Assembly: GCF_030056735.1 (NCBI RefSeq)
Contig: NZ_JASHKN010000013.1
Coordinates: 62,001 to 126,000, forward strand
DNA: 64,000 nucleotides
Direction of reading: 5' to 3'
From: Rhodococcus sp. IEGM 1409
GTDB lineage: Bacteria > Actinomycetota > Actinomycetes > Mycobacteriales > Mycobacteriaceae
Shown: positions 53,850 to 59,355 of the stretch, piece by piece
Layout: each line of letters begins with the position of its first letter
Position numbering within the stretch: position 1 is the stretch's first letter
Notes under the pieces: generated by a model
What the model saw: the letters and a program-made list of their open reading frames with translations, nothing else
Databases searched by the model: none
Told to the model about the DNA's origin: nothing
Translations under genes and position numbers: made by a program

Positions 53850-53917
53850 GGGGCAAGCCCCCTGTGAGTGGTTAAGGAGCCCACGGACTCCTTAACCACT
53901 CACGGGGCCGGAGGCCC
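53848..53917. terminator. Triple hairpin terminator after hsaB
   Basis: Three stem-loops in 70 bases: 7 bp with a 2-base loop (53848-53854 with 53857-53863), a perfect 16-bp stem (53864-53879 with 53888-53903) and a 5-bp stem (53905-53909 with 53913-53917). The large stem is nearly symmetric and can stop transcription from both sides; the Abi-alpha-like gene ends at 53917 from the other direction. Confidence 0.88.
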
Positions 53918-54753
53918 TACAGCGAAAAACACGTATGACAGAAGTCGTCACCGAACGGCGTCAGCAGGATGCTACGACGCACAATCCTGTTGGATCGTCC
54001 TGCACGCTTGACCGCCTCGATCACCGACGGCTGCACCTCGACCACCTGGTACCGGTCGGCCTCGACGGGCTCGCGTGAGAACGCCACCAAACCGAGCCGA
54101 TGCAGGTTGTTCAGGTAGGCGCTGATGCGGTCCAGATGACGACATCCCGCTAGTTCTCCGATCATCGACAGACCCTCGTCGATCATTTCCGAGCCGACTC
54201 CGAACGGCCGCGCCGTGCGCACATCGACGCTCGGTTGCGCACCGGAGGTGGCCAACAGCCGAAGAATTCGAGCTTCGTCCGGTGCGATCTCGTCGAGGAT
54301 CCGGTCGTAGGCCGGGTGCAGATCGTCGCGATCGGTCACGTCCGCGGAACGGTCCAGCAACCTGTCGCCGCGTACCCGCAGCGCCGCGAGTGTGGCCTCG
54401 ACGCTCTGTTTGCGATTGGTACGAGTTGCCATTGCCGCCCGCAGATTCTCCGTCCGCGAGCCGTCTCCGTTGGAGTTCTCCGCCCGACGTTCGGATTGCA
54501 CGTTGGCGGATTCAGCAGCCTCTGCCGCGGCTTCCGCGGCGGCCTGAACGATCTGGCGAGTTGCTTCCTTCGCCGTTCCGAAAGCCCAACCCGTCAGCTT
54601 GATCGACGTGAGCGTCGTCGTGGCGGTCAGCCCGACAAGGCTACGGATCAGACGCTTTTCGACGGATTCGACCGGCGCGATGTCCGCAGCCCAGTCGTAC
54701 GATTCCGCTTCGACGATCAGGCGATGGTCGTGCTCACTCATACTCATACTCAT
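53917..54753 (-). CDS. Abi-alpha/DUF4393-like protein
   Basis: A 278-residue protein. The central LDEIAPDEARILRLLA motif followed by GVGSEMIDEGLSMIGELAGCRHLDRISAYLNNLHRLGLV resembles the Abi-alpha (DUF4393) family, first named from phage-abortive-infection work. Its helical N-terminus contains a long Ala/Glu/Gln-rich segment likely to be coiled coil. Start at ATG 54753, overlapping the upstream DUF445 stop (ATGA); MSMSMS gives alternative starts at 54747 and 54741. Abi function is suggestive only. Confidence 0.75.
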   Translation of the reverse strand: MSMSMSEHDHRLIVEAESYDWAADIAPVESVEKRLIRSLVGLTATTTLTSIKLTGWAFGTAKEATRQIVQAAAEAAAEAAESANVQSERRAENSNGDGSRTENLRAAMATRTNRKQSVEATLAALRVRGDRLLDRSADVTDRDDLHPAYDRILDEIAPDEARILRLLATSGAQPSVDVRTARPFGVGSEMIDEGLSMIGELAGCRHLDRISAYLNNLHRLGLVAFSREPVEADRYQVVEVQPSVIEAVKRAGRSNRIVRRSILLTPFGDDFCHTCFSL

Positions 54754-56024
54754 ACTCCGAATATTGCGAGGTGCAGGAAACCGGCAAACGAGCCCAGCAC
54801 GGCCCCGTGTACGAACAACAACCACTCGTCCTGTTTGACGGCTGAGCGTAGTAGTTCACTGAAATCTTCCGGTGAAAGGATGCTCATACGTTCGGTGACG
54901 AAGACGCGAATCTTCTCCGACTGGCTCTCGGCGAACTCCGCGTCCTCGAAGACCCGGGGGTACAGGTCGAGCACTTCGGTGGTGGCCAGGCCGGGCAGAC
55001 GCTTGTAACTCTGCGAACCGACGGTCATCTTGACCACCGACTTAGCCCAGCCTGCCGCCTCGTCGACGGATTCGCGCAGTACCTGATCGAGCATCCGCCG
55101 CGTCCGGTCCGAACGGGGACCTTCGAGGAGTTCAGTGCCGATGTTCTCGAGCGTCACGACGTGATCGGCCAGGGTTTTTGCGTACCCGGCGATGATCTCG
55201 GTGCGTCGTTTCAGGAAAAGTCCCTGCCTCCACGGCACCCAACGGCTGGGGGTGATCGGCTCGAAGATCATCGTGATGCCGAGGTAGTTGACGATGTACC
55301 CGATGATCACGCCACCGATGGGAAGCACCCACCACTGCGGAACCAGGTGGAGGATTCCGACGAGCACGAAGCCCATCGGGAAGCCGAAGTAGAAGCCGAA
55401 GTTCTGCATGAACCGGAGCTCTTTGTTGCCCATCGTGCGGAAGATGTCGTTGAGCAGTTTGGGATGCGAGGAGAGGTAGCGGATCACCATCAGCTTCGCG
55501 TCGATGAACTCGTCGATGTCCTCTTCGATGCGGTCGGTGATCATTCGCACGCTGGCCGGCAGATCGTCCTCCACCTTGCGGAAGACGGCTTCCTTCACCG
55601 AGGTCGGAAGGTTGTGCCAGAGCTGAGGATTCTCGGCCGTCATGATTCTGGTGACCACGCCGCGCACTTCACTGCGCGAGATGTTCACCAAGTGCTCGGC
55701 AATGCTGTCCGGGTCCAGGACGCGGTAGAAGTCGGCGATGCTGCCGACTTTCGCGAGGGATTTGTCGACGGCGATCGACGCCATCTTTTCCGCTCGAGAG
55801 GGGACGATGCCTTGCCAACCGAATCGGCCGTCGCTCGTGATCGCGGGGATCACCTGGACGCGTCGAGGGAGGAACGGGAAGAGCAGTTTGAGGCCGGGCA
55901 CTTTGATCCCGTGGAAGTTGATCGGAGCAAAAAGCATCAGGACGCCCGACCAATTGGTGATGTACCCGATGATTCCGGTGAACAAAGGAATGGTGATCAA
56001 CTGTTCGAGCAAGTGGTCCGGCAC
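54750..56024 (-). CDS. DUF445 family membrane protein
   Basis: A 424-residue DUF445 protein: an N-terminal membrane helix with TGIIGYITNWSGVLMLFAPI, the repeat-like match VIIGYIVNYLGITMIFEPI near 235-255 after a second hydrophobic pair, and a C-terminal helix (FVHGAVLGSFAGFLHLAIFGV). The paired Y-I-x-N-x-x-G motifs are the family hallmark. Biochemical function is unknown. It overlaps the Abi-alpha-like gene by ATGA. Confidence 0.85.
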   Translation of the reverse strand: MPDHLLEQLITIPLFTGIIGYITNWSGVLMLFAPINFHGIKVPGLKLLFPFLPRRVQVIPAITSDGRFGWQGIVPSRAEKMASIAVDKSLAKVGSIADFYRVLDPDSIAEHLVNISRSEVRGVVTRIMTAENPQLWHNLPTSVKEAVFRKVEDDLPASVRMITDRIEEDIDEFIDAKLMVIRYLSSHPKLLNDIFRTMGNKELRFMQNFGFYFGFPMGFVLVGILHLVPQWWVLPIGGVIIGYIVNYLGITMIFEPITPSRWVPWRQGLFLKRRTEIIAGYAKTLADHVVTLENIGTELLEGPRSDRTRRMLDQVLRESVDEAAGWAKSVVKMTVGSQSYKRLPGLATTEVLDLYPRVFEDAEFAESQSEKIRVFVTERMSILSPEDFSELLRSAVKQDEWLLFVHGAVLGSFAGFLHLAIFGV

Positions 56025-56194
56025 CGTCGCACATCCTCCTCATATCCGAGAACCTCACGTTCGGACATGATTGCCGAAACTTCGCTCTTCGTGGGTGTCT
56101 CGTTGGCTACTGCTGCGCCTTCCCAGTTGCGTCAGCATAGAGGCCCGACAATTCGGGCTGTAGGTGGGTAGGAAGTTGATGTAACCTCGCGTAC

Positions 56195-56251
56195 ATGGTC
56201 AGTATTGCGCACAGCACGACGACGCCGGTTCTCTTCCGGCGCATCGTTTAG
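56195..56251 (+). CDS. Threonine-rich leader peptide of thrS2
   Basis: An 18-codon ORF encoding MVSIAHSTTTPVLFRRIV, with three consecutive Thr codons (ACG ACG ACG, 56216-56224). No Shine-Dalgarno is well placed, but TAACCT at 56182-56187 is at -10 distance from the ATG, so it may be translated from a leaderless mRNA. A 6-bp hairpin (56223-56228 with 56236-56241) begins at the last Thr codon. It stands in front of a ThrRS gene with an intervening terminator: the layout of a ribosome-mediated transcription attenuator responding to charged tRNA-Thr. Confidence 0.75.
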   Translation: MVSIAHSTTTPVLFRRIV

Positions 56252-56275
56252 CAACTGCTGACCGAACCCTTTCAG

Positions 56276-56304
56276 CCCCGGGAGTTATCGCCCCGGGGTT
56301 TTCC
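56276..56304 (+). terminator. Attenuator terminator upstream of thrS2
   Basis: Stem CCCCGGG (56276-56282) with CCCGGGG (56292-56298), extendable by two pairs, followed by TTTTCC and a TGTTT tract; it begins 24 bases after the leader stop codon and ends about 50 bases before the thrS-like start. GGTTC (56227-56231) in the leader hairpin can alternatively pair with GAACC (56264-56268), a possible antiterminator switch. Confidence 0.82.
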
Positions 56305-56354
56305 TGTTTCTTCGCTCCGTGTGCGTCTCCCTTCGAACGATTTGGAGAGCTCTC

Positions 56355-57572
56355 ATGAGCGTTGACCACCGCGAACTCGGGCGCGAGCTGGAGTTTTTCG
56401 CCACCACCCCCATCGTCGGAGCCGGCCTCCCGCTCTGGTTACCGGACGGCGCGATCATCAGGAGCGAGCTCGAAAAGTTCGCCGCCGAGCAAGCCGCGCG
56501 ATCCGGTTGCCGGGGTGTCTATACCCCCGTTATGGCGAAGAAAGAGTTGTACGAGAGATCTGGGCATTGGTCCAAGTTCTCGGACGACATGTTCCCCGAA
56601 ATGAAGATAGGCGGAGAGTCATTTCTCCTTCGTCCGGCTAACTGTCCTCATCACGCCCAGGTATTCGCCGCTCGCGGTCGTAGTTATCGCGAGCTACCAT
56701 TCCGCGTTCGTGAACTCGGCTCGATGTTCCGTAGTGAACTCTCCGGAGTTCTCAGTGGCCTGAACCGCGTCAGACAGATCAATCTCGACGACGCACACGT
56801 CTTCTGCAGTCGCGAGCAGATTCGAGCGGAAGTGATCGTCGCGCTCGACGCGATCGAGGACTGCTACTCGACTCTGGGGATTGCCGAACGGGGGTACCGA
56901 CTCTCGATCAGAGGGACAGGGCAATACCTCGGCACCGACGAGCAGTGGGCCGACGCCGAGGATCAACTTCGCGGAGCATTGAACGCGCGCTCGATCGAAT
57001 ATGTGGAAGCGAAGGGGGAGGCGGCGTTCTACGGTCCCAAGATCGACGTCCAAGTGCGAGACGCGCACGGCCGCGAGGAAACACTCTCGACCGTCCAACT
57101 CGACTTCAATCAACCGGAACGGTTCGAACTCGAGTACACCGCAGAAGACGGATCCAAGGCTCGCCCCGTCATGATCCACCGAGGACTACTCGGGTCGATG
57201 GAACGCATGACCGCGCTCTTGATCGAAAGGTTCGAAGGGCGGATGCCGCCGTGGCTGGCACCCAATCAGGTGTCGATTCTGCCCGTCGGTGACCGGCATC
57301 GGGATGCGGCCGAGCGTTTGCGAGCCGATCTCGAGGCGCGCGAGGTTCGAGCGGCGATTGCGCCTTACGGTTCGTTGGGACGTCGCATCCGCGAGGCCCG
57401 CACCCACCGGGATCCGTATATCGCGGTGATCGGGGACAACGAGGTGCACGGCGGCAGCGTCGACGTTCTGGTCCCTGCGCGAGGTGGGCGATCGGTCCTC
57501 GACGCGGGTGTGTTTGTCGCTCAGGTGGTCTCGGGCATCAAAGAGCGTGCCCTGCTTCCGGCAGGCTTCTAG
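56355..57572 (+). CDS. Truncated threonyl-tRNA synthetase paralogue
   Basis: A 405-residue class II synthetase consisting only of the ThrRS catalytic core (about 10-300) and anticodon-binding domain (about 305-400). Standard ThrRS is about 640-690 residues; the N-terminal TGS and editing domains are absent. The zinc ligands that recognise threonine are retained: Cys97 (ANCPHH), His148 (LDDAHVF) and His275 (PVMIHRG). Motif 2 (FRSELSGVLSGLNRVR) and motif 3 (GLLGSMERM) are present. ATG 56355 follows GGAGAG. Preceded by a Thr-codon attenuator, it may be a starvation-induced or inhibitor-resistant second ThrRS. Confidence 0.9.
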   Translation: MSVDHRELGRELEFFATTPIVGAGLPLWLPDGAIIRSELEKFAAEQAARSGCRGVYTPVMAKKELYERSGHWSKFSDDMFPEMKIGGESFLLRPANCPHHAQVFAARGRSYRELPFRVRELGSMFRSELSGVLSGLNRVRQINLDDAHVFCSREQIRAEVIVALDAIEDCYSTLGIAERGYRLSIRGTGQYLGTDEQWADAEDQLRGALNARSIEYVEAKGEAAFYGPKIDVQVRDAHGREETLSTVQLDFNQPERFELEYTAEDGSKARPVMIHRGLLGSMERMTALLIERFEGRMPPWLAPNQVSILPVGDRHRDAAERLRADLEAREVRAAIAPYGSLGRRIREARTHRDPYIAVIGDNEVHGGSVDVLVPARGGRSVLDAGVFVAQVVSGIKERALLPAGF

Positions 57573-58015
57573 CCGACGGGCAGCTCGTGGAGGGCGCGCA
57601 CCAGCGGCGCGAGTTCGGGTGTCTTGCATGCCTCGTCGAGTGCGGCTTCGAGGGTGGCGTCGTGCGTCGGCCGGGCGCTTTCGAGAAGCTCGCGGCCGGC
57701 CGGCGTCAACTCCGTGTAGATGCCTCGACGGTCGTCGGCGCACAGGATGCGGGTCAGCAGTCCTCGATCTTCGAGTCGATTGACCAAGCGCGTCGTGGCA
57801 CTACTGCTCAGTGCGGCAGCGCGAGCCAACTGGGCCATGCGCATGTGCCAGCCGTCCTGGCGGCTCAGCGCATCGAGCACGGTGTATTCGACGACGGACA
57901 GTTTGTGCTCACGCTGAAGGGCGCGTTCCAGTTCGGTGTCGAGGGCGCCATGCAGTGCTGCGAGTGTGCGCCACCCTTGCGAACGGATTTCGACGGCGTC
58001 GTCGGCGATCCCCAT
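57569..58015 (-). CDS. MarR-family regulator
   Basis: A 148-residue MarR-type winged-helix protein: SVVEYTVLDALSRQDGWHMRMAQLARAAALSSSATTRLVNRLEDRGLL (helices and recognition helix) and the wing DDRRGIYTELTPAGRELL. It is divergent from an MFS exporter, a common drug-efflux arrangement. ATG 58015 was chosen over the open extension to 58165, which would run through the promoter repeats. Confidence 0.9.
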   Translation of the reverse strand: MGIADDAVEIRSQGWRTLAALHGALDTELERALQREHKLSVVEYTVLDALSRQDGWHMRMAQLARAAALSSSATTRLVNRLEDRGLLTRILCADDRRGIYTELTPAGRELLESARPTHDATLEAALDEACKTPELAPLVRALHELPVG

Positions 58016-58070
58016 GTGATTCTCCTTATCCGTCTCTTGCCGCTCCAGGTTACCAGCTTGCGCATGTAGC

Positions 58071-58158: not shown

Positions 58159-59355
58159 ATGCCATTGGGTCTCATTGCCCTCGCTATGGGCGGGTTCGGG
58201 ATCGGCCTCACCGAATTTGTCATCATGGGCCTCCTGCCCGAGGTCTCGGCCGACTTCGAGGTCACCGAGTCCGTCGCGGGCTACCTGATCTCGGGCTACG
58301 CACTGTCGGTGGCGATCGGCGCGATCCTCCTGACCGCTGCCGTCACCCGCTTCGAGCGCAAGAAGGTCCTTCTCTCGCTGATGGTGCTGTTCATCATCGG
58401 CAACCTGATGTCCGCGCTCGCGCCCTCCTACGAGGTCATGATGGGCGGACGAATCGTCGCCGCGCTGTGCCACGGTGCGTTCTTCGGTATCGGTTCGGTG
58501 GTTGCCGCCGACATGGTCGCGCCCAACAAGCGCGCCGGCGCCATCGCGATGATGTTCGCAGGCCTGACCATCGCCAATGTTCTCGGCGTTCCGTTCGGCA
58601 CACTGCTGGGCCAGCAACTCGGATGGCGCTCGACGTTCTGGGCCATCACCGTCATCGGCGTCATCGCGCTGATCGGAATTGCAGCACTCGTCCCGACGAC
58701 GCCCGCAAGCACGACCGGCGGCGGATTGCGCGGAGAGTTGGGGGCGTTCCGCAACAAGCAGGTATGGCTCTCGATCGCCATCACCATCCTCGGCTACGGC
58801 GGAATGTTCGGAGCCTTCACCTACATCGCCTTCACCCTCACCGAGGTGACGGGATTCGCGACGTCCAGCGTTCCGTGGCTGCTCATCCTCTTCGGGTCGG
58901 GCCTGTTCGTCGGCAACTTCCTCGGCGCCAAGGCTGCCGACCGCTCGCTGACGAAGGCACTGGTCTGGATTCTCGCGATCCTGACTGTCGTTCTGATCGT
59001 GTTCGCCGCCACCGCCGAGAGCAAGGTCATGACCGTGATCTCGCTGTTCTTCATGGGCGCCTTCGGTTTTGCGACGGTTCCCGGTCTGCAGATGCGGATC
59101 ATGAACTACGCGTCGGCCGCACCGACAATGGCGTCGGGTGCAAACATCGCCGCCTTCAACGTCGGCAACGCGCTCGGTGCATGGCTGGGCGGAATCACTA
59201 TCGCCGCGGGGCTCGGCTTCACCTCCCCGATCTGGATGGGAGCGGCAGTCACCGTCGCCGGTCTGCTGGTCCTGATCGTCGCCGCGAAGATCGACCGCCC
59301 GACGGCGTCAGAGCAGTCGGCACCGACCACCTCGCTGCATCCGACCGCCGCCTGA
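58159..59355 (+). CDS. MFS transporter, DHA1/AraJ-like
   Basis: A 398-residue major facilitator with 12 predicted helices, beginning LIALAMGGFGIGLTEFVIMGLLPEV, the signature of the AraJ/YdhP (DHA1) group of sugar or drug efflux proteins. A GAAAGGAAC ribosome site precedes the ATG. Paired with a divergent MarR regulator, it is probably an inducible efflux pump. The stop codon lies in a hairpin shared with the convergent ceramidase gene. Confidence 0.9.
   Translation: MPLGLIALAMGGFGIGLTEFVIMGLLPEVSADFEVTESVAGYLISGYALSVAIGAILLTAAVTRFERKKVLLSLMVLFIIGNLMSALAPSYEVMMGGRIVAALCHGAFFGIGSVVAADMVAPNKRAGAIAMMFAGLTIANVLGVPFGTLLGQQLGWRSTFWAITVIGVIALIGIAALVPTTPASTTGGGLRGELGAFRNKQVWLSIAITILGYGGMFGAFTYIAFTLTEVTGFATSSVPWLLILFGSGLFVGNFLGAKAADRSLTKALVWILAILTVVLIVFAATAESKVMTVISLFFMGAFGFATVPGLQMRIMNYASAAPTMASGANIAAFNVGNALGAWLGGITIAAGLGFTSPIWMGAAVTVAGLLVLIVAAKIDRPTASEQSAPTTSLHPTAA

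Follow-up and report, generated by a model that had tools for sequence, protein, structure and literature searches.

The thrL-thrS2 unit of Rhodococcus sp. IEGM 1409, in which a short leader ORF precedes a gene encoding a threonyl-tRNA synthetase (ThrRS), is very probably a leaderless, ribosome-mediated transcription attenuator that would couple thrS2 to the supply of charged tRNA-Thr, as judged from comparative sequence analysis and modelled folding. The DNA analysed, hereafter the window, is a stretch of 64,000 nt (assembly GCF_030056735.1, contig NZ_JASHKN010000013.1, positions 62,001-126,000, forward strand). The features of the locus are given in Table 1.

Table 1. Features of the thrL-thrS2 locus, in window coordinates.
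Feature	Position	Strand	Basis
-10 element TAACCT, 7 bases 5' of the thrL ATG	56182..56187	+	TANNNT recurrence in relatives
Leader ORF thrL, product MVSIAHSTTTPVLFRRIV	56195..56251	+	Direct reading; Thr run kept across loci
P0 outer stem, 5' side (partner 56251-56263)	56197..56208	+	Folding, swap test
Putative sensing codons ACG ACG ACG (thrL Thr codons 8-10), then CCG	56216..56224	+	Direct reading, codon counts
Region 1, CGCCGG, predicted to pair with region 2 absent a covering ribosome	56223..56228	+	Folding
Region 2, CUUCCGGCG (56236-56241 with region 1, 56233-56239 with region 3)	56233..56241	+	Swap test, ribosome-masked folding
P0 outer stem, 3' side	56251..56263	+	Folding, swap test
Region 3, CCCCGGGAG (56278-56284 with region 2, 56276-56282 with region 4)	56276..56284	+	Swap test, masked folding
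Region 4 and T run (terminator 3' arm, then TTTT)	56292..56302	+	Folding
thrS2, 405-aa ThrRS, ATG at 56355	56355..57572	+	Pfam: catalytic core and anticodon domain only

Read directly, thrL runs from its ATG at 56195 over 18 codons to a TAG at 56249-56251, and has the make-up of a putative leader ORF with a codon run for the regulated amino acid. Among 50 loci (the window and 49 relatives), this run comprises three Thr codons in 47/50 and two in 3/50. A second set was drawn from 126 fetched sequences that passed a filter, by keeping 50 representatives of less than 85% identity; L045 and its copy L143 failed the terminator filter of this set. Three Thr codons were counted in 46 of these representatives, two in three and five in one. 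The first of the last three run codons is ACG in 37, ACC in 8, ACT in 1, ACA in 1 and a non-Thr codon in 3; changes at the first Thr codon of the run are mostly synonymous, with Thr retained. The second is ACG in 46 and ACC in 4, and the third, which overlaps the hairpin, is ACG in 49 and ACC in 1. Over six genes of the window, Thr is most often encoded by ACC (76 vs 42 for ACG).

The loci of 80 relatives were fetched from named genomes, and 49 from Actinomycetota encode a short ThrRS. Each of these 49 loci, and the window as well (50/50), has an in-frame leader that encodes Thr-Thr-(Thr)-Pro within its 15-22 residues and is followed by a hairpin. The genera concerned include Rhodococcus, Amycolatopsis, Nakamurella, Microlunatus, Promicromonospora, Saccharopolyspora, Micromonospora, Kribbella and Nocardioides. 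No Thr leader was found before ThrRS in the other 31/80 loci. In 29 of them an open frame of at least 175 codons extends 5' of the core, as expected for a full-length enzyme; the remaining two (L063 and L064, from candidate-phylum assemblies) have neither a long upstream frame nor a leader.

A covariance model (R1) and an alignment (A1) were built from 38/50 leaders, with near duplicates and L045 omitted. R1 was run on 394 genomes of the class, and the ThrRS2 protein was searched in the same draw, the short type being defined by E ≤1.1e-105, where the scores show a gap. An R1 match at E ≤0.001 was obtained in 86/394 genomes. Of 61 short thrS2 genes, 59 have a match on their own strand within 400 bases 5' of the gene, although some R1 training loci may be of the same species as genomes searched; the two genes without a match are cut by contig ends (51 bases upstream in G562:C209, 109 bases in G422:C45). 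In the genus of the window, 11/28 genomes carry the leader at E ≤1e-4, and the leader unit is therefore accessory in this genus. Nine of the best matches from a draw of 296 genomes of the phylum were also read. Eight encode a short ThrRS and all eight have the leader, with Thr-Thr-Thr-Gly in one case (L087); a full-length ThrRS from this draw (L085) has none.

Matches to R1 that do not adjoin a short thrS2 number 34/93, of which five are strong and 29 weaker. Among the strong ones, that in G369 precedes a short ThrRS below the cut-off and that in G504 lies at a contig start, the gene being cut off; the other three (G624, G647 and G511) stand before full-length enzymes, described below. Fourteen of the 29 weaker matches were read: a Thr leader was seen in none (script filter) and an aromatic leader in three, and 11 were taken as chance. 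Aromatic-codon-rich leaders are present at L189 (G502:C1:2563368, MQRKFWRFYGYRPSGRTVALLALR), L197 (G450:C6:173552, MQQNFWRFYGYRPTGTVAPPVLR) and L199 (G316:C12:1324, MSCSAYYWFTDGASPVGSRRTR), with TANNNT just 5' of the ATG and a GC-rich hairpin, a design as in the Thr leader. The gene that follows them presumably encodes a DAHP synthase, which its start resembles.

The earlier note on this DNA had described the 18-codon ORF with its ACG run, a hairpin from the last Thr codon onwards, and a GC stem with TTTT before thrS2, and direct reading found each of these at its place. It had also asked for a comparison across Rhodococcus; taken beyond that genus, the comparison recovered the leader, the Thr run and the hairpins in the 49 further loci and class-wide. 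Its proposal of a Thr-codon leader, translated leaderless and attenuating a ThrRS gene, is backed by this wide conservation and by the covariation described below.

The -10 element implies that the thrL transcript would start at or beside the ATG, that is, leaderless. TANNNT was found 6-8 bases 5' of the chosen start codon in 50/50 loci, the start with such a box being preferred where several were in frame (30/50 loci had one start only). The 50 representatives were selected for a TANNNT box, so that a spacing table from that set is not independent evidence; the count over the 50 loci differs in this respect. A scan with the sigma-70 consensus gave no promoter at thrL. In the stretch 55-20 bases 5' of the -10 box, GAAA is present in 18/50 representatives, always at -35 to -32 relative to the first base of the -10 element, compared with a mean of 2.3 (sd 1.5) in letter-shuffled controls; GAAAWY is present in 9/50, all at -35 to -32. 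Loci with such a WblC-like GAAA upstream of the thrS2 leader include L088, L090 and L122. The WblC box (GAAAWY) has been placed 3 bases 5' of the -35 element (PMC7157823), and Table 1 of that paper includes S. coelicolor thrS2 as a gene activated by WblC (PMC7157823). The fixed place of GAAA fits the described box and the activation of S. coelicolor thrS2, and we read it as a putative WblC-type promoter that would form a second regulatory layer in some lineages. Neither GAAA nor GAAAWY is present in the thrL promoter of the window itself.

These promoters bear on the strongest of the other explanations, namely that the leader is mainly a general sensor of translation stress of the whiB7/wblC uORF type. 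Such a sensor would respond to ribosome-slowing antibiotics and not to Thr shortage as such, the Thr codons only setting the stall site. The WblC activation of S. coelicolor thrS2 and the GAAA found near the place of the WblC box in relatives speak for it. However, a Thr codon run is kept before ThrRS, with mostly synonymous changes at its first codon, and the window promoter lacks the box. Moreover, a WblC box acts on initiation and would thus add to an attenuator, not replace it. We consider this explanation improbable and keep to an attenuator governed by charged tRNA-Thr.

The predicted fold of the RNA from 56195 to 56307 consists of one long hairpin that spans the leader ORF (56197-56263) and of a distinct terminator, with an energy of -50.6 kcal/mol vs -33.7 (sd 3.3) for shuffled sequences (z -5.1, 0/200 as good). 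The recurrence of the leader, the Thr run and the hairpin, together with this z score, is far more than chance would give. Pairing was assessed by swapping arms among 49/50 representatives; L087, in which region 2 was misparsed, was omitted here and from the ribosome test below. For the outer stem P0, own arms gave -13.95 kcal/mol vs -11.70 for swapped arms (z -6.2, 0/5000 permutations as good), and the reversed-segment controls were flat (z -0.1 and -0.4). Within P0, the hairpin formed by CGCCGG (56223-56228) and CCGGCG (56236-56241) begins within the last Thr codon. P1 is almost invariant and was little informative (z -2.6, 54/5000 permutations).

By sequence and folding, an intrinsic terminator lies between leader and gene. 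It pairs CCCCGGG (56276-56282) with CCCGGGG (56292-56298), followed by TTTT at 56299-56302; the element (56274-56302) ends 52 bases 5' of thrS2, and its hairpin (56274-56300) has an energy of -18.1 kcal/mol. The swap test gave z -16.7 for the terminator in the 49 representatives, a circular value because the arms had been chosen for pairing. Many relatives have a short T run (e.g., TTCGTC), and the hairpin is weak in L045. A terminator scan restricted to loops of 3-8 missed this element, whose loop exceeds the limit, and returned a smaller stem at 56294-56306.

The predicted antiterminator helix joins CUUCCGG of region 2 (56233-56239) to CCGGGAG of region 3 (56278-56284), the latter inside the terminator, whose 5' arm is region 3. 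In the swap test, this 2:3 pairing gave z -5.9 and -6.0 in two runs, with 0/5000 permutations as good; the reversed-segment controls departed somewhat from flat (z -2.6 and -1.8). At the first position outside the CCGG core, 24 of the 49 representatives have a C-G pair, 18 U-A, 5 U-G and 2 no pair. L092 has A-U at the second pair, and in L087 the usual core is replaced, by eye, by ACCCG and CGGGU. The earlier note had proposed GGTTC:GAACC as the alternative pairing. Both words exist in the window (56227-56231 and 56264-56268), but the two occur together only there and in L004 and L005 (3/50); GAACC lies outside the terminator and the pair is not conserved, which rules it out as the switch.

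The effect of a ribosome was modelled with a 28-base mask on RNA ending before region 4. In the window, the mean pair probability of helix 2:3 is 0.99 with the ribosome on Thr 8 or 9 and 0.63 on Thr 10; it is 0.00 with no ribosome, with the ribosome at codon 15 or at the stop. Placed on the first Thr codon, the ribosome lets helix 2:3 form (at least 3 pairs) in 47 of the 49 representatives, and on the second in 44, as compared with 6 without ribosome and 4 with the ribosome at the stop. When region 3 was shuffled, 29-33/49 still reached at least 3 pairs with the ribosome on the first Thr codon. Since shuffled regions still pair and the reversed controls are not flat, part of the 2:3 signal reflects G+C richness. 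In silico, a ribosome that stalls on the Thr codons thus frees an antiterminator, but only if the RNA stops short of region 4; when the RNA of the window is folded in full, the terminator prevails at equilibrium in all six states tried, the stalled ribosome included. Antitermination would therefore have to be kinetic, occurring during transcription.

From these elements we infer a timing, a direction of response and a physiological signal, as follows. Transcription would begin at or beside the leader ATG. With ample Thr-tRNA, the ribosome would reach the stop codon and cover region 2, and with no ribosome the leader hairpin (P0 and region 1:2) would sequester region 2. In both cases region 3 would be free, the 3:4 terminator would form and transcription would stop about 50 bases 5' of thrS2. 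With scarce Thr-tRNA, the ribosome would stall at Thr codons 8-9 and cover region 1, and the free region 2 would capture region 3 before region 4 is made, so that the polymerase would enter thrS2.

It is very unlikely that the element simply terminates constitutively or serves as a processing site, with thrL a translated short ORF that has no regulatory role. The dominance of the terminator at equilibrium in every state tried would agree with this, but the leader ORF and the hairpins are jointly conserved before ThrRS, and both P0 and helix 2:3 covary. T-boxes of ThrRS genes occur in Bacillota. That a T-box-like tRNA-binding element or another riboswitch senses tRNA-Thr directly is scarcely credible for this locus, even though unusual T-boxes precede ileS in several actinobacteria (PMC1262725): the conserved letters are those of the ORF, and the Rfam covariance search of the window, which rules out a T-box or other Rfam element, gave no family at gathering score and, over 56222-56307, one match at chance level (anti-hemB, 13.8 bits vs a gathering score of 49.5, E 0.88).

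The gene downstream from the leader is of the short thrS2 type in the window and in the relatives. In the window, its product is a short additional ThrRS that lacks the TGS and editing domains. A full-length ThrRS is also encoded in the genome (core at G000:C44:84564-85706), and a third ThrRS match is weak (E 7.2e-9). We read thrS2 as encoding an accessory ThrRS, a spare for conditions that overtax the main ThrRS. The Zn ligands (Cys, His, His), at their usual positions in ThrRS, are present in 57/57 leader-bearing enzymes, and a zinc-sparing enzyme was ruled out. The residue that we take to match E. coli L489 is Gln in 54/57 leader-bearing enzymes and in 32/53 others; the resident ThrRS here has Leu. 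Position L489 of E. coli ThrRS is tied to borrelidin-type resistance (PMC4389257). Gln is no specific sign because 32/53 enzymes without a leader carry it too, and borrelidin-type resistance was dropped as a reading of the enzyme sequence. Directly behind thrS2, Pfam searches identified a MarR-type regulator (57569-58018, minus strand) and a divergent MFS transporter (58159-59355, plus strand), possibly a drug-export pair. An ORF at 53917-54825 on the minus strand has a Pfam Abi_alpha (abortive infection) domain (E 1.8e-40).

A ThrRS tree of 65 rows places 40 short enzymes on one side of a branch (100/99) and 25 full-length enzymes on the other. An exclusive link between leader and short ThrRS does not hold: in three genomes of one family (G624, G647 and G511; loci L181, L182 and L183), a Thr leader precedes a full-length ThrRS, which is the only ThrRS found in the genome. 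These three enzymes fall among housekeeping enzymes, in two places of the tree, so that the leader has also become attached to, or has arisen before, housekeeping thrS. The short ThrRS of Prescottella clusters with its Intrasporangium counterpart rather than with the Rhodococcus erythropolis enzyme, a placement suggestive of transfer of the short ThrRS. Tentatively, and with rather less than even confidence, we propose a transferable cassette, in which a leaderless attenuator would keep an editing-free ThrRS silent and, in some lineages, a WblC promoter would also control it. The spare enzyme would then be expressed solely in cells whose resident ThrRS is poisoned or outrun, ThrRS-inhibiting antibiotics being one conceivable cause.

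In the trp and thr operon attenuators of E. coli, whether the antiterminator or the terminator forms depends on ribosome stalling at a codon run; unlike thrL, they are not leaderless, and they control biosynthesis operons. Anabaena also has a duplicated ThrRS (thrS1/thrS2) of which one copy is made under stress, but through the Zur repressor and zinc instead of attenuation (PMC4787780). The uORF of wblC/whiB7 likewise mediates transcription attenuation in actinobacteria, but it controls a regulator gene and answers translation-targeting antibiotics (PMC7157823). A leader peptide and a terminator are also found in the actinobacterial trp, trpS, leuS and ilvB attenuators, which precede biosynthetic or synthetase genes, with antiterminators for trp and leuS, whereas the available part of the same survey reports no conserved RNA structure for actinobacterial threonine operons (PMC1262725). 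The text available of PMC4833913 does not mention thrS.

The closest system is thrL-thrS of Streptomyces lividans TK24 (SLIV_19412/SLIV_19410), known here from its published description as a leaderless short leader (MKRVRPFLETTPGFVPAR) before a ThrRS gene, with a leaderless start in RNA-seq (PMC8079986). Relatives' leaders are very like it, e.g., MKRAQPFLTTTPDSVPAR in L139. The window shares with this thrL family a Thr-Thr-Pro leader directly before thrS, its leaderless start being predicted from the -10 box. S. lividans thrL differs in that it has two Thr codons, and its authors saw a single hairpin, found no U run and call termination unclear; the available part of their description gives no antiterminator, wider family or link to short ThrRS (PMC8079986). 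The metN leader metL of S. lividans, MSTTSDRTPATEATTTPGARCMCRRMCAF, also contains TTTPG (Table 4 of PMC8079986). The listing of S. lividans thrL in 2021 overturns the earlier note's view that a Thr attenuator was as yet undescribed for any actinobacterial ThrRS. That note names the kind of element correctly, errs on the switch pairing and on complete novelty, and is partly supported overall. In a literature search largely without subscription papers, we found no publication on the leader family, its antiterminator or the short-ThrRS link.

The family offers actinobacteria a candidate Thr-tRNA sensor with exactly defined base pairs, in which the ribosome would start at the RNA 5' end. With it, one can ask by experiment why a second ThrRS that lacks editing is retained by many actinobacteria under apparent control by starvation, and whether attenuation works together with antibiotic-responsive promoters at thrS2. 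Since S. lividans thrL was already reported in 2021, the attenuator of the window is of a known kind, here tied to an accessory synthetase clade; compared with that single description, the present analysis widens it to a family whose antiterminator is specified and whose target is almost always of one kind, the short ThrRS clade.
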